Source: Hirsutella rhossiliensis (taxonomy: Eukaryota > Ascomycota > Sordariomycetes > Hypocreales > Ophiocordycipitaceae). Taken from it: DNA of 64,000 nt. A program made the position numbers and the translations under genes. The stretch is from NCBI RefSeq assembly GCF_020360975.1, contig NW_025408672.1:1798001-1862000 (forward strand), given 5' to 3'. Shown here piece by piece: positions 24,559 through 37,307 of the stretch (position 1 is the stretch's first letter; every line of letters begins with the position of its first letter). The notes below the pieces were generated by a model that was not told the origin of the DNA, ran no database searches, and saw nothing but the letters and a program-made list of their open reading frames with translations.

Positions 24559-25044
24559 TCACAAACCAGACGGCAGCCTCCTCACAATCGCCTCTGTCAG
24601 CCCATAAACACTGTCCACCATTTCAACCCCAAATTTCTTGCACACAATCTGCACGTTCCCCCTCTTCCAGTATCCCTCAGGACAGACAACGATGGCCTTC
24701 CCCGGAATTCGCGCCCAGATCCCAAACTCGAGCAAACTGACGGGCGCCTGGGTAGCCGGGTGGAAGTAAACAACGACAATGTCAGCCTTGTCCTGCTTGT
24801 CGAGCTCCCACTCCACCTGCTCGCGGTAAGGAGCAAATTCGATGTCCTCGCGCCAGGAGCTGTCCCAATCAGCGCGGTACGGATTGTATATTGTGACAGG
24901 CACGTCGGAGAGGGAGCTGGATAGGGTCTCGCGCCAGTCGCTCGTGTCCACTTTGCCCGTGGTGCCGGCAAGGAAGACGGACTTGACGCCGCGAGGGGTT
25001 TCGTGTGAAGGCGCGTAGATGACCTGGTTCCGCGCCTGAGCCAT
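24559..25044 (-). CDS. Nucleoside 2-deoxyribosyltransferase-like protein
   Basis: A single-exon frame of 161 aa from the ATG at 25044; the upstream extension lacks a good start. It resembles the deoxyribosyltransferase-like family (Nuc_deoxyri_tr2). Visible are KSVFLAGTTG at the first strand, TSDWRETL, VTIYNPYRADWDSSW, WELDKQDKADIVVVYF and PVSLLEFGIWAR, the last two marking the nucleotide-binding and active-site side. The length matches small stand-alone members. The exact nucleoside substrate is unknown, and many fungal members are uncharacterised. Confidence 0.8.
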   Translation of the reverse strand: MAQARNQVIYAPSHETPRGVKSVFLAGTTGKVDTSDWRETLSSSLSDVPVTIYNPYRADWDSSWREDIEFAPYREQVEWELDKQDKADIVVVYFHPATQAPVSLLEFGIWARIPGKAIVVCPEGYWKRGNVQIVCKKFGVEMVDSVYGLTEAIVRRLPSGL

Positions 25045-25665
25045 TCTAAAGGACGAAAGGGTATTGTTGAAAGTTGCTTGAAGAAAGAAAGAATGAAAGA
25101 GAGGACAGGGACGACGCGCTCGGAACATCAACCAACCAGGAAGGTCGCCGTCCTGATTGTCAGCTGAGGCAGACTTTCCTCCAACTTGAGCAAAGCGGGG
25201 GTCCACGGACAGCCTTCAACGTTGTCGTCGGGCGCTAATGATGGCCAGTTGGGTTGGCTCCATTTTGAGCTGCGATTTTAAAGGTAGTCATCATCTCTGG
25301 TCCAATGCACGGGACGGGCCGCCGAGGGAAACAAGGCTAATTACTCACTAGAATAGCTAAAACTGCCGGCGGCTAAGGACGGCTTGCGATTCATAAAAAT
25401 ACGGCCACAACAGGGTCGGATCTTTCCGATCCGACATGCGGCACCCCCTCAACCCTCAGCCCTTGTTAGCTACTCCGTACTGTAGGTAGATACGGTACGT
25501 TTGCCATATAACTGTTACGTGTACCTTGCCAATTGGCCAAGAGATCTCTACCAGTAGCAGCCTCGGTCGAACATCCCGACATTGCAATTTCTATGATGGC
25601 AATGCTCCACTGAACAAGGGCTTGGTGCTAGGGCCCTCATATCCAAGGCCCAAACTACCATCAGG
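25045..25665. other. Intergenic region left of the decayed island
   Basis: This is the promoter side of the deoxyribosyltransferase-like gene, then sequence where homology to the aldo/keto reductase relic is lost. No intact gene is seen. Confidence 0.5.
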
Positions 25666-25822
25666 GGCAGTGTCCCACTATCAAAGAGTCAATATGATGT
25701 TGAACGGTAGAGCGAAGGACATACAGTGTTTATGCCGCTATCGTACGCATGCTTTAATAGCGCAAGTCCCTTCAAACGTGTTAGCTCATGGGAAAGGCGC
25801 TGCAGCGGAGATGCACATATTA

Positions 25823-25868
25823 CCATGCCCCACCCCCCTTTCGGTAACACCCACCTTTCGGTAGCGCA
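25823..25868 (+). repeat. Left terminal inverted repeat of the Fot1-like element
   Basis: This 46-base repeat starts CCATGCCCCACCCCCCTTTC. Within it, CCTTTCGGTA occurs twice about 19 bases apart, a likely transposase-binding direct repeat. Confidence 0.95.
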
Positions 25869-26117
25869 ATTGAAAAATTCTCCACCAAAAGTCTACCATT
25901 TGAACTACATGAAATATGATCAGAACTTAACATTATAAACACAAAAATTATCATTCCGTAGAGAAATGGACGCTCTTATATGTACCGGCGCTTTTTACCA
26001 TTCGCCCGGATCTGGTGGTGACTGGAAGGGCTTCAGGTGCCACCTTGACTTCAATCACTGAAGCTGTCTCCACCTCTGAGACCGCCTCCTCCTCTGTGTC
26101 AGAATTCAGCACAACGG

Positions 26118-27748
26118 CTATCTCTTGGCTTTTAATTTGGGAATGGCTTCCTCAGCCACCAAAGCTTCACTGAGAGTCATGAACCGTCTGTTCGGGTTCG
26201 GAATTGCTCTCCTCTTCTTGCCTCTCTGCAGCCGGGCCACTTCTTCCTCTAGCTTCGCGATTCTGTTGCTGTGCTCGGCAAGCGTCTGTTCTTGGGCTTC
26301 AAAGCCTCTAGCTATCACGGCGTATCGTCTCCGGGTGCCAGGAGTCTTGTTCTTTCCGAAATCGCGAATCTGGCGGCTGTTTCTTGGCGTATCATCAGAA
26401 CCCAAAATGGCGCGGACTTTGGAGACGTCTCTACAATGTCCGCGTGAATTTCTGGATGCCGCAATGCCTTGGATCGTGAGATCGGCCAATTCCCAGTGAC
26501 CCTCCAGCCGGACAATATATTCTTTGCCGTCATTCCAACCTCGCGCGCTTTAGCATATGCCCGTATAAAATTGACCTTATGAACAGGCGCAGAATCGGTC
26601 AAACAGGTCAATTTCTGAAGTTCTTTCCGGTAAGCTGCCTTGGAGGCATTGAATACACCGTTATCTAACGGCTGGAGGCCATGAGAGCAGTGGGCAGGAA
26701 GGTAACAGCAATAAACGTTGTTCAAAAGCATGTGGCCATCCATGCATCCTGGTCTCGGTTAACAGTAATTCCTACAGAGGTGGATAAAGAAACGCACCGT
26801 TGCATGACTTCCATGTCCATCTAATATGATCAGTCTAGCATCTGAGGCATCGGCTGGTCGCGTCTGGGGCAAATAGACCCTCTCAAGCCACTCAATAGCG
26901 ATATGGTTGTCCGTCCATCCGTTGGGCGACGTTATGTAATGCCAGTCGGCTATTTTGCCGAATTCCGTCAAGAACCACTGTTTCTGAAGCTCTTTGCCCT
27001 TAAAGATAATGCCAGGGGTAAGGACACGGCCGTCCGCGGTGATAGCTTCAATAAATGAGGTCCAGTTGCGGGACTGTGGCCCTTTCAGAAGGGCCTTCCG
27101 TTTTGGGTCTGCACTCCCAACCACAAGACTATCCAAACCTGGCAAAAGAGTCTGGTTAGTAAAAGTAATGAAAGACAAGCCAAATACTCACCAAAGCCAG
27201 ACATAATACCGCCTTCGTCAACATTCACGGTATTTTCTGGTTTAATCCATCCATACTCCTTTTCCCTGATATCGAAGAACCAGTGAACCGCCCGAGGCGT
27301 AAAAGCATTAAATCGGTTAGCTTCCTGACGTCTCCCACGCTTGTTCTTGATGTCCGGATGGCGATTGATGAATTTAGAGACCCAGTTGCGCCCACTGTCC
27401 GCTCGTTGTTCAGTTGCTTTATAAGAGCCTCCACACATGCGCGGATCTGACTGTGGGAGGAGCATAGCCGAGAGACTCTTGGCGGAGGATCCAAGAAACC
27501 AAGCGAGCTTCCTGAGACTTACTCAAGAGTTGACGAGGCTGGATCTGATCAGCCAGGGCTACCTGGCCTTTGAGTCTGTCGGAAATAGACTGCTGAGGTA
27601 TGTCATACTTTTGGGCGGCGCGGTACTGCGACAAGCCGTTTTTTGTGACATCAATTATCGCATTAGCCATAATATCCTCCGTATAAATACTCGAGGCCGC
27701 TTTAAGGTCATTTTGGTCATGTGGTGGAGGAATAACGAGAAGAATCAT
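26118..27748 (-). pseudogene. Pogo/Fot1-type transposase, frameshifted
   Basis: From the ATG at 27748 the domains run in order: a Psq-type helix-turn-helix (GLSQYRAAQKYDIPQQSISD), a CENP-B/Tc5-type DNA-binding part (NWVSKFINRHPDI) and a DDE domain. The acidic residues are NVDEGG, LIILDGHGSH and LQPLDNGVF, i.e. D, D, D. A Lys/Arg-rich coiled-coil tail follows. Two probable introns are seen (27191-27139 and 26796-26749). The frame breaks at about 27475, 27425, 26725 and 26440. Each break is corrected by one missing base, so the copy cannot make transposase. Confidence 0.85.
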
Positions 27749-27960
27749 CGTCAGGAGGCGGAAGGAGATTAGGGGGTTGGATGGTAATTTCGCGTGCAAG
27801 GTACGCACAGGCCGCAGACCCCTGTACAAACATTCAACCATCGAAAAGTAGAATTCAATCAATCCACTATCTACTCCAAGTGACGGCTTGTGAATATCTT
27901 CAAAGCTGGCTGGAATCCGTGTAAGTGAAATTGATGGTTTTTGGTGGGGATATTTTCTAA

Positions 27961-28006
27961 TGCGCTACCGAAAGGTGGGTGTTACCGAAAGGGGGGTGGG
28001 GCATGG
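27961..28006 (-). repeat. Right terminal inverted repeat of the Fot1-like element
   Basis: This is the exact reverse complement of the left repeat over 46 bases. Confidence 0.95.
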
Positions 28007-28180
28007 TACTCTTTCTTCGTCTAAAACCCAGGGAAACCATTGAGGGCTGCCAAGATGGAGGCCACCGAGTATGGGATTTGAGACGCGCAATCCGCTGTTG
28101 CCCAATCTGCGGTGCTCTACTTTTGTTCGTGATATCGACTGGCGCAGAGAGTCGGGCACCTTTGATAACGCCTTGGCCAT

Positions 28181-30532: not shown

Positions 30533-31684
30533 AAGGCATATCACGCATTTGGAAGGATACGAGACGGTGGCTTTTCTGGAGCCAAAAGCTTGATATGTAG
30601 CTGGTAATGAAGATTTATTGTCTCCCTGCTCCTACCAAACCTCTGTACATGCAGGCGGTTAATTCACTGGCCTAGAACGCAGGGACTAATGACCTCTCGG
30701 CGTGACAAGACTGGACAATCCAGATAATGCCCAAAAAGTTTGCTTCAAGGACACAAAGTATATATAGTCAAATATGTTCTTCTAAAAGCTTAGCTTACTG
30801 AACCACGAGTCTAAGTCAAACAGGGCATGTAACGCCCTGTATATCGGGCAGGCCACACACCACACCGACATCACCGCCGAACCCTGACCCCCTAGTAGCT
30901 TCAACAACAATAGAAATCCACACCTGTCCAACAAAGCAAGCAGGCAGGCGCGTTTGAGGCCTCTGCAGGCGAGGATTCTCAAGTACAAATAGACCAATCA
31001 AGTCCTTCAAGTCCTCAATTCTGATGCCCGCTTGCCCCTATGTGATTTCTGTAAAAACCGCGTTCAAAGTCTCACCCCACTCCATTGAACATGCGTTATT
31101 TGACAGGTTATCATTTAGTTTAGTTTATTCAAAAACAAGCCGTGCGCGGCCCTGGAGCAGATACGCCAATCACCTTGAAGCATAGGCCTTGCCAGCCAAG
31201 CACATTTCTGCGTTTGAAACTAAGTTGAAAACGCGGTATTTTTGCCGGCTTGCCTGCTATGCCGTTTCCCGCGATGAAGAAGACGTGATAGCGACAGAGT
31301 TTCGGCAGATATGTAGGCCCCGTTTCTAGCCCGTGTGAATCATCGAACTGGAACCGGAGATTTGAGGATAGCGGAATAGCCATGTACGTGCTCGGTTATC
31401 ATAGAAAACGGTGCTTGCCATGGAAAATGATTCCGACGAAAACATGCGAAACTTTACGGCAGTTGCGACGGCATCGTAAATTTTATCACTCTTGATATGC
31501 GTCTGATTTGCATGCTCAAAAAGTGTGAAGATGCTGCCAAAGCTAGTCATTAGACAGAACATGGTGCCGGGTCTGTCTACTTTCGCCACAAAATCGAGAC
31601 CTCTTGTTTGTTTCCGACGCAACTCATTCTATCTTGTTTCTCCAGCCCCACGATCCACATCGTTGGCGACTGGGAATTGATGCC
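30533..31684. other. Gene-free part of the decayed island
   Basis: Possible further relic sequence follows the acyltransferase pseudogene. On the minus strand 31129-31622 holds two open frames (including FRYPQISGSSSMIHTG) with no family I recognise and no clear ATG start. Otherwise nothing is seen. Confidence 0.4.
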
Positions 31685-33326
31685 ATGTCTCTCGACGCTG
31701 TCAACGTCTCTGTGCCATCAGTTGGGCATTATCTCTTGGGCAAAACTGACGTCTTATCTCGGGTTGGAACGGCTGCGTCCGAGTGCACGGCATTGGCAGT
31801 CAAGCAGTGTATCCACGATGTCATCAGCCACCAGGCTCGGGCGCGCCCAAACGCGCCGGCTTTGTGTGCATGGGACGGCGAGCTCACGTACGGGGAACTA
31901 GACGACCTCTCATCACGCTTGGCAGGCCACATTGCCGGGCTCGGTGTCGGGCCCGAGGTGGTGGTTCCGCTTTGTTTCGAGAAGTCGCTGTGGACTACAG
32001 TGGCCATGCTTGGCGTGCTCAAGGCCGGCGGCGCTTTCGTGCTACTCGACCCAGGCTTGCCCGAGAGGCGGCTTGAAAAGCTCTGCCAGCAGATGCACGC
32101 CACAATAGCCATAACGTCGACGCAGTGCAAGGGGTGACTATCGGGCTTCACAAAGCACACGGCGGTACTGGACAAGTCGTTCCTGCAACAGTTGGCATCG
32201 ACATCGACCACGTCATCAGTGTTGGCCAAAGCACAGCCGACCAACGCTGCCTACATCATGTTCACCTCTGGCAGCTCTGGGGAGCCAAAGGGGTGCGTCA
32301 TCGAACACCGCTCCTACTGCACATCTGCCATGGCCAACGGGCCTGTCATTGGCCTGGACAGGGAGTCTCGCTCTCTACAGTTCAGCTCCTACAGCTTTGC
32401 GGGGGCCGTGGTGGAGATGCTCATGACCCTGATGCACGGCGGCTGCGTCTGTGTCGTGGCGGAGGAAGACCGTGGTAGCCATCTCGATAGGGCCGTTCGC
32501 CGGCTGGGTGCCAATTGGGCAGCCCGATAATTTATCTATGGCCTTTATTGAATCGCCAGCCTGGAGGGTCGCCCTTGGCCCTTGCGCATTAGGGACACGA
32601 TTTTATAAGACTGGAGACTTGGGTGTAAAAGCAAGCGACGAGTCGACCGAGATCTTGGGCAGGAGAGATACCCAAGTCAAGCTACGAGGCCAGCGCATCG
32701 AGATTGGAGAGATTGAACACCAAGCAAGACAGGCCGCACCCGACATCATCAACGTGGCTGTCGAGATGACTGAACTTCAAGGAAAAGGTCCCGGCTTGAT
32801 AGGCTTCTTCGTGCCGAGAGCCCGCCCAGATATGGGCGCAACGGACGCGCAAACGAGGACCACGATTCAGACGATCCGGACCAGACTGGAAAAAGTGTTG
32901 CCACATTACATGGTCCCGTCTGCCCTGATACCCATACCGAGCCTACCATTAAAGGCATCGGGCAAGGTGGACCGGAGGCGGCTGCGCGAGATGGGGTCGG
33001 CTCTATCGGCGCAGCAACCCACGGAACTGCCGGTTGCCGAAGAACTACTGCGGCAGCCAAAGACGACAGACGAGCGCCGCCTGAGAGACTTGTGGGCACA
33101 GGTTCTAAAGATTGAGGCCGACGCCATTGGCGTACATGATAGCTTCTTCAGGCTTGGCGGAAACTCCATTGCCGTGATGAAGTTGGTCGCAGCAGCACGC
33201 AGGGCCGGGACTACCATTGCCGTAGCCGACGTCTTCCAGAACCCCGTCCTTGAGGCACAAGCCCGAGCACTTACAAGCGTTTGCAAAACTCCAGGGCGTG
33301 AAGGGCTGCAGTCACAGGCGTCATAA
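31685..33326 (+). pseudogene. NRPS adenylation-thiolation fragment with stop and internal deletion
   Basis: From the ATG at 31685 the frame reads as the start of a fungal NRPS adenylation domain: CIHDVISHQARARPNAPALC, ELTYGELDDLSSRLA and LKAGGAFVLLDP. An in-frame TGA at 32135-32137 interrupts it. The same frame then resumes with the AMP-binding core YIMFTSGSSGEPKG and SLQFSSYSFAGAVVEML. Near 32520-32545 the frame changes and about 130-150 residues expected between A4 and A7 are absent. The text resumes at AFIESPAW, YKTGDLG and GRRDTQVKLRGQRIEIGE, and ends with a thiolation domain (FFRLGGNSIAVMKLV, Ser attachment site). No condensation domain is seen. It cannot encode a working synthetase. Confidence 0.85.
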
Positions 33327-34213: not shown

Positions 34214-37200
34214 ATGGCCGGCACCAAGGGCAAGGTCTGCTTAGCGTGAGTCTGCCCCTCCCCCGCCATTGTGGAATCATCGAGCTATTTCTCCCGGCAT
34301 TGAGGTCATTGGCACCTTTTGTTGAAACATTGAGCTGATCAAGGTCGTCAGCTATTCCGGCGGACTCGACACGAGCACAATCTTGGCATGGTTGCTAGAG
34401 CAGCAATACGAAGTTGTGTTAGTATTTACAATTCCGGTTGCAGCTGAGCCTCGCGCTGCTGAACCTGTCATACTGACTGCTTGCAAGCTGCTATTTGGCC
34501 AATGTTGGCCAGGAAGAAGACTGGGCTTCGGTGGAGAAGAAGGGTGAATCACCTCTCCCACATATTTATCGGGAACGCCTGTGCTGACATTCCGCGCGCA
34601 GCTCTCCAGATCGGAGCCACCAAGAGTATGACCCAAGCACGCCGAGACCTTGCCATCGTGAGAATATTGCTGAACCTGAACGAATCTGATAGTGATCATC
34701 GATGACCTTCGCAAGGTTTTCGTCGAGTAAGTTGGATTGATAGCACGGTTGTGACATACTGACATCAATACAGCGAATTGTGCTGGAAGGCTGTGCAATG
34801 CGTTCGTCAATCCCACTCGATCCGATACATTTTCTGCGACTAACACGAAGTTTCTAGAATGCTGTGTACGAGGACCAGTATCTCCTGGGTTAGTTTGGTA
34901 TGTTCTCAAGCATTTGAGTAGAGGCTAATGGGATATCAGGTACCAGCTTGGCTCGCCCTGTCATCGCCCGCGGAATGATGAAGGCCGCCGAAAAGGAGGG
35001 GTTCGTCCATTCTGCTTGGAGTTGCTTGAAACCAGCTCGCGTTAACACGAAAATTGCTCCAGTTGCGATTTCGTTTCGCATGGTTGCGTAAGTATTAACT
35101 TACTGAGTATTCACTCCCTGTCCAAGTTGATATGCTGATTGTAATCATAGACCGGCAAGGGGTGGGTTATACCCTTGACGATCCTGAATAATGCAGCTAA
35201 CATCCTACTCAGCAATGATCAAGTTCGCTTTGAGGCACGTACTTTCCCCCCTTCCCTTCCTACCGCAGGTTCCTTCTGGATACCTTCTCTAAGAGATGCC
35301 GTCGCCTTGCCACATTGCCCCGGATGTCTGATGACCTCTTTCTCGACGACTGAGATCCACTCAAAGACGAATATCGTGCCTGAAACGCTTGGAAGACAGC
35401 ACCATTAAACGTGTCCGGAAAAGACGCCAAGTCGACCATGCCATGGTTGTCGCCAAAGAAAGAAGGCCAACTGCTGAAACAACCTGCGTCTAAACTCGAA
35501 CCCTTCACGGGCCCAGTGGCTTGTTGGGGTCGGGCATCAGTTTTGGTTTGAATTTGACGTTCCGTCTACGCCTTCTCTCGTGTTCAACACTGTTCGTGGG
35601 CAATGTGGCGGCTGGTCGGCTCTTGCAGGGAACCTGTCCCCGGATGCCCAAACAACTGAAGTGATTTGTTCTTGAGATACTAACTTGAGCAGTTAGCCTA
35701 TTTGACTATTAATCCCGCCATCAAGGTCATCGCCCCATGGTACGACTGCCAACTTCTTCCAATTACGAATTTCCAAGTACAGACTGATAAGTGTTTGCAC
35801 AGGCGTGACCCTCTTTTCTATCAGCGTTTCCAGGTTAGTTCTGTCAATATCCGTTTTCTGAAGATTTACTGACATACTTCTCAGGGACGCAACGACCTCC
35901 TTGACTACGCGGCTGAAAAGTGTATTTATAAGGCAGATTTTCTTTTTTTCATTCGGAACATGCTAAGTTCTCCCAGGTATCCCAGTGACCTCGACACGCG
36001 CGAAGCCGGTTAGTTTTTACAACGCCAAGAAGGAGACAAAAGTTGCTGATAGAACAACAGTACTCAATGGACGATAACTTGGCTCACTGCTCTTACGAGG
36101 TATTTAGGGACCAGTGAGTGTCCTATCCCTACATAGCTGACGGGTGCAGGCCGGCATGCTCGAAGACCCCAACACCACCCCACCTGAAGACATGTGGTAA
36201 GTTGTGACACGTTCTGAATGATGGACACTTGGCTTGCTAATTGCAAAGTGTAGGACGCGCACTGTCAGCCCTCTCAAGGCCCCCGACACTCCACTCGACA
36301 TCACCGTCCACTTCGACAAGGGCATTCCCGTCAAAGTCGTCACTCCCCAGCAGACCGTCACTGATTCCCTTGAGCTGTTCACTCTGCTCAATGCTCTTGG
36401 CAAGGAGCATGGTGTCGGCCGCATCGTGAGTTTCCTCAGGCACGATAAGCTCCGAACGCTCTGACTGACATTTGACGACAGGATATTGTCGAGAACAGGT
36501 ATACGAGGCGTTCTTACAAATCAAATAAGGCCTATAAGCGCTAATTTTATGCGATTGTTAGGTTCATAGGCCTTAAGAGCCGTGGTTGCTGGACGTTTTC
36601 TGTTTCAAAAAGGGCCCTTTACGATTGCTAACATGCTTGCAGACGACTCCCCATGCATGAGTATCCTTCGCCTTGCTCACATTTCGATCGAGGGCCTGTA
36701 AGTCGCACGGTGCGTTCACACGGGTGTTACTGGTACTGATAGTTCCAGTGTCCTTGACGGTCGTGTCCGCTCTCTGCGTGACAACTTAAGCAAGCAGTGG
36801 TCTGAGCTGCTCTATAATGGGCTCTACTTTTCGCCCGAAAGAGCGTTTTTGCAGCGTAAGCCGTTCTGTTCGGCAAATGGAAGACTTGGCTAACCTGACT
36901 ACAGCGAGTCTTGACTTCTCTCAGCAGCGGGTATGGTGAAGAGCCAGCAATGGAAGCTTGCATGATCTGACTGAGTTTCCCAGGTCAACGGCGAGGTTCG
37001 CCTCCGTCTGTACAAGGGCAGCGCCTACGTTCTGGGTCGCACTTCCCAGGAGAAGCTGTACTCCGAAGAGGACGCCTCCATGGATTCGCTCACCACCTTC
37101 GACCCCTCCGAGACCGTGAGTCATGTTCGGGAGTGCTTCAGTGAAGACGAGTTGCTGACAACATCTTGTACAGTCTGGTTTCATTACCATCAACGCTATC

Positions 37201-37307
37201 CGCCTCAAGAAGGTAATCGACCCATCGGTTCTTGCGATGCTGAGACAGAGATGCTAACTCAACCAAGTACGGCCTGCAGATGGCCGAGGCTGGCGTCGAG
37301 CTCTAGG
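34214..37307 (+). pseudogene. Argininosuccinate synthase copy split into 26 exons, apparently decaying
   Basis: The exons together encode about 412 codons, the normal size of argininosuccinate synthase, which joins citrulline and aspartate in arginine synthesis. Exons include 34214-34245, 34352-34417, 34488-34543, 34602-34625, 34693-34726, 34774-34801, 34858-34888, 34940-35000, 35063-35087, 35151-35161 (11 nt), 35213-35234, 35693-35739, 35803-35833, 35885-35919, 35977-36008, 36061-36099, 36150-36196, 36254-36425, 36482-36498, 36562-36590, 36643-36697, 36749-36855, 36905-36930, 36984-37115, 37174-37212 and 37269-37307. Conserved parts are seen: the ATP-pyrophosphatase loop AYSGGLDTS, LANVGQEEDW, GTSLARPVIA, GNDQVRFE, GRNDLLDYAAEK and VENRFIGLKSRGC. 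Defects: intron 11 is 458 bases with a GC donor (GCACGT), exons 14/15 do not join in frame, and intron 20 starts GG. All other joins keep frame with GT..AG. Confidence 0.85.

Follow-up and report, generated by a model that had tools for sequence, protein, structure and literature searches.

The closest precedent for the gene described here is the histone gene H4E of Pezizomycotina, which carries seven introns in about 100 codons and includes exons of 16, 18 and 21 nt (PMC10878826). According to the same account, its layout is unlike that of its sister gene and strikingly conserved in Pezizomycotina, the gene is patchily present, and the database model is wrong for A. nidulans; its authors propose a duplication via cDNA followed by the acquisition of new introns (PMC10878826). 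Among Fusarium core genes (n = 226), the mean is 2.5 introns per gene and the maximum 15; the Fusarium CTP synthetase gene is an intron-rich example, with 15 introns whose positions are conserved (PMC5677156). Very short exons that annotation misses are described in Hypocreales for Trichoderma Xlr2 (micro-exons, PMC11121469) and for Fusarium CYP621A (an exon of 1 nt, PMC12940212). Stwintrons (PMC5639578) and the single-nucleotide intron shift are associated with intron positions that are near but not identical between related genes, and introner-like elements offer a route to many new introns (PMC4457414).

Here we describe a gene for argininosuccinate synthase (ASS) of the nematode-killing fungus Hirsutella rhossiliensis. 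It lies in a stretch of 64,000 nt of contig NW_025408672.1, called the window below. Like H4E, it is a dense-intron paralogue with tiny exons and a patchy presence (PMC10878826), but it encodes a metabolic enzyme of 412 codons, it has 25 introns, and the other ASS copy of the genome is also intron-rich (12 introns). It shares with the Fusarium CTP synthetase gene (PMC5677156) the character of a Hypocreales housekeeping gene with many introns, which are fewer there. As in Xlr2 (PMC11121469) and CYP621A (PMC12940212), its shortest exons escape annotation; the micro-exons of the two ASS copies, however, are 11 nt (window) and 5 nt (second copy) long and are needed for the TGKGNDQ motif. Among the literature matches listed, no title or abstract opening reports an intron-dense fungal ASS.

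Exons, introns and splice signals of the window gene

Splicing confirms the original prediction, made from the sequence alone, of an ASS of about 412 codons in 26 exons and 25 introns. The start had been placed correctly; the end had been put at 37307, and the stop codon ends one base inside, at 37306. The coding sequence of 1239 nt, distributed over a genomic span of 3093 nt, comprises 412 ASS codons and the stop, and has no internal stop. Exon sizes range from 11 to 172 nt with a median of 35.5 nt, the smallest being 11, 17 and 22 nt (Table 1). Introns of 47-70 nt make up 23 of the 25, the exceptions being intron 1 (106 nt) and intron 11 (458 nt). With about 20 introns per kb of coding sequence the density is extreme, and the prediction was right to call it exceptional: the 226 Fusarium core genes have a mean of 2.5 and a maximum of 15 introns per gene (PMC5677156).

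Table 1. The window ASS gene and the second ASS copy of H. rhossiliensis. Positions are those of the window unless a contig is given.
Feature	Position	Strand	Remarks
ASS gene, start codon to stop	34214..37306	+	26 exons, 412 aa
Exon 1, 32 nt	34214..34245	+	
Exon 2, 66 nt	34352..34417	+	exact skip in Epichloe bromicola model P0030
Exon 3, 56 nt	34488..34543	+	
Exon 4, 24 nt	34602..34625	+	
Exon 5, 34 nt	34693..34726	+	P0058 skips exons 5+6
Exon 6, 28 nt	34774..34801	+	P0058 skips exons 5+6
Exon 7, 31 nt	34858..34888	+	
Exon 8, 61 nt	34940..35000	+	
Exon 9, 25 nt	35063..35087	+	P0042, P0044 skip exons 9+10
Exon 10, 11-nt micro-exon	35151..35161	+	encodes TGK and part of G in TGKGNDQ
Intron 10, 51 nt	35162..35212	+	read as coding in H. 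rhossiliensis GenBank protein P0009
Exon 11, 22 nt	35213..35234	+	
Intron 11, 458 nt, GC-AG	35235..35692	+	sole genome match is itself
Exon 12, 47 nt	35693..35739	+	
Exon 13, 31 nt	35803..35833	+	
Exon 14, 37 nt	35885..35921	+	last base opens Cys169 codon
Exon 15, 32 nt	35977..36008	+	
Exon 16, 39 nt	36061..36099	+	exact skip in 7/14 listed Claviceps models
Exon 17, 47 nt	36150..36196	+	
Exon 18, 172 nt, largest	36254..36425	+	
Exon 19, 17 nt	36482..36498	+	
Exon 20, 29 nt	36562..36590	+	
Intron 20, 52 nt, GG donor (GGACGT)	36591..36642	+	
Exon 21, 55 nt	36643..36697	+	
Exon 22, 107 nt	36749..36855	+	
Exon 23, 26 nt	36905..36930	+	
Exon 24, 132 nt	36984..37115	+	
Exon 25, 39 nt	37174..37212	+	exact skip in Claviceps africana model P0041
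Exon 26, 39 nt, including stop	37268..37306	+	
Second ASS copy	within L003, G000:C2:5860500-5868500	-	13 exons, 12 introns, 412 intact codons

The donor is GT in 23 of the 25 introns, GC in intron 11 and GG in intron 20, and the acceptor is AG throughout. Close to their 3' ends, 22 of the 25 introns have a CTRAY branch motif, compared with 8% of random GT..AG stretches of the same window. In their ends, branch motif and length, the introns match the spliceosomal U2 type of Pezizomycotina. A strict intron consensus, whose exact finds include 14 of the 25 introns, has 15 matches in the 3.1 kb of the ASS gene and at most 6 in stretches of the window outside this gene; in 200 kb sampled from contig C2 it has at most 9 (median 2), and this maximum falls within a block of 33% GC. 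For the prediction's statement that the other genes of the window have 0-5 introns, the density of this consensus served as the check. Such ordinary short introns would each be excised individually through intron definition, and because they would then be recognised as units, even exons of 11-30 nt could be joined.

The prediction saw no common core sequence among the introns, and the all-against-all comparison of the 25 bears this out. The longest exact match is 12 nt, the best local core score is 11 against maxima of 9-12 in 20 shuffles, and the mean core score is 5.9 against 5.6 in shuffled sequences. Intron 11, the one intron that was searched against the whole genome, has no second copy there. 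An origin from introners or introner-like elements (PMC4457414) was considered and rejected, as the 25 introns have no common core and intron 11 is without a second genomic copy. Unlike in stwintrons (PMC5639578), no nested intron was recognised when introns 11 and 20 were inspected by eye.

Relatives of the protein and the probable sharing of introns

Judged by its sequence, the product of the gene is an ordinary ASS. The match to 2nz2_A, an ASS of solved structure, has E = 2.2e-140 over residues 3-402 of 412; the homologues of the spliced protein carry PF00764 and PF20979; and the SGGLDTS and TGKGNDQ motifs are in place. The KSRGxY motif (KSRGCY) is encoded only if the splicing of intron 20 uses the GG donor. 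Full-length alignments to relatives are far beyond chance, and the annotated 412-aa proteins of Claviceps, Dactylonectria and Thelonectria align end-to-end at 94-96% identity. The GenBank protein of H. rhossiliensis itself (P0009) equals the splice save for two choices: intron 10 is kept as coding, and the GG donor is avoided. Complete ORFs are also found on six contigs of 1360-1564 nt, three of them at 93-94% and three at 85-87% identity to the spliced protein. Because the window gene spans 3093 nt we take these contigs to be transcripts; they could in principle be intronless genes, and further entries from the same source sit on longer contigs.

Two trees of chosen rows place the window protein in a Sordariomycete clade. 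In the larger, with 104 rows (two plus 102 that were picked from 240 proteins by name and a length of 380-440), this clade has 33 rows and an SH-aLRT of 100; in the smaller, with 58 rows, it has 18 rows and support of 100/100. The trees contain no basidiomycete sequence. The clade consists of Hypocreales (Claviceps, Epichloe, Nectriaceae), Colletotrichum and Xylariales. The closest relatives are those of Claviceps, Epichloe, Dactylonectria, Neonectria and Thelonectria, followed by Colletotrichum and Xylariales.

Gene finders stumble over tiny exons, and therefore the faults of annotated proteins can mark introns. As a proxy for the introns of relatives, the indel breakpoints of their annotated proteins were set against the intron positions of the window gene, P0009 being excluded from the counts. 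The 64 relatives have 52 distinct breakpoints, of which 23 are no more than one residue away from a window intron (the models, coming from related species, are not independent); the expected number is 6.3, and 20,000 rotations never gave as many as observed. The other 29 have no match. Of the 25 window introns, 19 are matched by one or more of these breakpoints. Among 25 distinct internal deletions of at least 3 aa, both ends fall at window introns in 6, one end in 15 and neither in 4. Among the skips exact at both ends, those of Colletotrichum concern exons 5-6 (Colletotrichum fructicola), exons 9-10 (two models) and exons 10-11 (Colletotrichum spaethianum), those of Claviceps exon 16 (half of the listed models) and exon 25 (Claviceps africana), and that of Epichloe bromicola exon 2; the micro-exon, exon 10, is skipped together with a neighbour in P0042, P0044 and P0064. 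At intron 9, two Colletotrichum proteins (P0051 and P0057) contain inserted residues, the first being Val and the last Gln, as in a retained phase-0 intron of the form GT..CAG. From these faults we infer that the relatives hold the actual introns of the window gene. A search of viral contigs for the DNA of relatives found none.

The counts also show how frequently the public models for this gene are in error: an internal indel of at least 3 aa is present in 32 of the 64 listed window-type proteins. The same holds for 42 of the 119 proteins listed for the second copy, and for 4 of 54 from sister Pezizomycotina, where the reference P0063 is one of the 54 and a stricter edge filter lists 2 proteins.

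The original prediction offered a transfer from an intron-rich lineage, for example basidiomycetes, as one source of the introns, and named a Hypocreales clade sharing them as the finding that would speak against it. For this genome a transfer is not supported, and such a clade is what the trees and, by proxy, the breakpoints point to. A recent transfer into Hirsutella is thus very improbable, the protein being nested among Hypocreales at 94-96% identity. What could still suggest it is the location of the gene, in a lower-GC stretch that also harbours a broken piece of an NRPS gene and a DDE transposon; the exons of the gene, however, have 56% GC and its introns 47%, so that the low GC is accounted for by the introns together with the degraded neighbours. 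From 24 to 38 kb of the window, seven 2-kb blocks are at 50-53% GC, and the others are at 55-62% except one of 52%. The truncated NRPS remnant (31547-33326) retains the start and the C-terminal part of an AMP-binding domain and a PP-binding domain, in different frames. Fragments of DDE_1 and HTH_psq transposase, flanked by inverted repeats seen by eye, lie at about 25822-28009 and presumably belong to a pogo/Fot1-like element. Together, the broken NRPS, the transposon and the lower GC fit an accessory setting.

Two observations concern the surroundings more generally. An ORF resembling nucleoside 2-deoxyribosyltransferase (PF15891, E 2e-38) is located at 24562-25215 on the minus strand of the window. 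Three sampled 10-kb blocks of contig C2 (L013, L020, L030) are at 32-37% GC, compared with 50-62% in the 2-kb blocks of the window, pointing to AT-rich tracts in the 82-Mb genome.

The second copy and the origin of the intron density

The second ASS copy encodes a protein identical to the H. rhossiliensis record P0121. It has a micro-exon of 5 nt (AACGA), which encodes Asn-Asp of GKGNDQ. At the site of this micro-exon, 10 of the 119 relatives listed are without exactly NDQ, which may mean that the micro-exon is widespread and frequently overlooked by annotation. Eight ORFs of the second type (P0213, P0214, P0216-P0220 and P0224), each of 384 aa and on contigs of 1438-1760 nt, have their breakpoint at residue 29 of the second copy and are without the N-terminal part, which perhaps reflects retained early introns or another start.

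The two copies have no identical intron position in common, though 6 of the 12 second-copy introns lie 1-3 nt from a window intron. As in H4E, a dense-intron paralogue thus has positions unlike those of its sister gene. With the limit of 3 nt, which was set after seeing the data, 1.5 near positions are expected, and 27 of 20,000 random sets have as many as observed. Near but non-identical positions are also what relates this pair to the stwintrons (PMC5639578) and shifted introns; they represent either recurring insertion sites or introns that have slid. Breakpoints of the second type fall at second-type introns in 13 of 41 cases (2.3 expected). Window-type breakpoints, when set against the second-copy introns, match in 10 of 52 cases (3.0 expected, none of 20,000 rotations as high); this excess arises because half of those introns adjoin window introns, and the comparison is not a clean negative control.

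By combining these observations, it is possible to propose how the dense layout came about. Most probably (we would put it at roughly 70%), the gene belongs to an old Sordariomycete ASS type whose layout results from intron gain in the ancestor of the type and was then kept by descent. Gain in that ancestor, rather than retention, would have built up the density of about 20 introns per kb, and the layout would then have remained static and been passed down, as has been proposed for histone H4E. The burst of intron gain envisaged by the prediction is plausible, but in the ancestor of the family and not in this species.

Alternatively, all 25 introns may descend from an intron-rich fungal ancestor, having been kept in this type and lost elsewhere. 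An ancestor of that kind, with loss prevailing over gain, is argued for in PMC8476143, and the six second-copy introns 1-3 nt from window introns could be slid homologues. We nevertheless regard retention as improbable. The second copy has no identical intron position, and annotation faults are few in the listed sister Pezizomycotina (4/54 against 32/64), suggesting that their genes are simpler. Furthermore, PMC8476143 likens its own ancestral estimate to the animal ancestor with 8.8 introns per kb, a density that the window gene exceeds more than twofold.

A more improbable course of events is that the ancestor of the Sordariomycete family acquired the gene together with its introns from an unsampled intron-rich lineage. 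The patchy distribution could be explained in this way: in the matches listed, Claviceps and Epichloe appear with the window type, and Metarhizium, Beauveria and most Fusarium matches with others. An AU test of 38 rows does not reject a position of the family outside the rest of the sampled Pezizomycotina (p = 0.23) or a grouping of the family with the second-copy type (p = 0.30). The best tree (58 rows), however, places the family within Pezizomycotina, weakly (84/77), and the best 120 matches include no named basidiomycete. Also against such an acquisition are the 55 listed non-family matches at 68-75% identity; those that bear names we take, judging by the name, to be Pezizomycotina.

The distribution suggests, in addition, that the window type is probably the only ASS, and so the arginine enzyme, of Claviceps, Epichloe and Colletotrichum, because none of these genera is named among the best 120 matches to each of the two other ASS types, both lists including entries without names.

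Odd donors and the state of the H. rhossiliensis copy

The original prediction mentioned neither the GG donor, nor the GC donor, nor the second ASS copy with its 12 introns. At intron 20, an in-frame GT just upstream of the GG donor would swap Gly-Cys-Tyr for Asp, and the next GT downstream (36595) adds 4 nt to exon 20 and shifts the frame. The Tyr that is lost with the upstream GT aligns with what we take to be the citrulline-binding Tyr282 of the human enzyme (numbered by hand). The detour from Gly-Cys-Tyr to Asp is annotated in P0009, P0015, P0038 and P0048, that is, also in three other species: Neonectria punicea, Fusarium sarcochroum and a Colletotrichum. Since these three are annotated with the same detour, a non-GT donor at intron 20 may be a trait of the family; in 58 of 65 window-type proteins the sequence here is KSRGCY or KSRGAY, with DSP or DAP after it. 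At intron 11, the Neonectria model P0015 misses exactly the four residues before the intron, as expected if gene finding takes no account of GC donors; GC-AG introns go unrecognised by Augustus (PMC5677156).

The GG donor raises the question whether the H. rhossiliensis copy has become a very young pseudogene, in which correct splicing is blocked and the second ASS, with its 412 intact codons, covers the need. Such a loss would be compatible with the proposed history of the family. It is suggested by the two alternative donors, one of which loses Gly-Cys-Tyr and the other the reading frame, by the broken neighbouring genes, and by Cys169, which is peculiar to the window copy and is Gly in all 18 relatives of 412 aa. 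We consider it possible but rather unlikely. The 26 exons are without a stop or frameshift, and the protein shows little decay, as just 7 of its 412 residues are shared by at most one of those 18 relatives; moreover, the detour in three other species argues that the odd donor may belong to the family. In our preferred reading of an old ASS type kept by descent, the window gene would be active in H. rhossiliensis.

Tentatively, and at less than even odds for the statement as a whole, the observations may be joined further. One Sordariomycete ASS type would have undergone extreme gain, to 25 introns in 1.24 kb, and kept them across Hypocreales, Glomerellales and Xylariales. The GC donor of intron 11 and the GG or other non-GT donor of intron 20 would be traits of this family, and the sister type would have gained introns, or had them slide, 1-3 nt away, so that the pair would document introns that were inserted repeatedly at the same sites or that slid around them.

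The origin of new introns, and the reason why a handful of genes accumulate them, is still an open question. Here, in an intron-poor group, a housekeeping enzyme has 25 short introns that are apparently fixed in several orders. Together with its 12-intron sister, the window gene provides a compact case in which insertion hot spots can be set against intron sliding.
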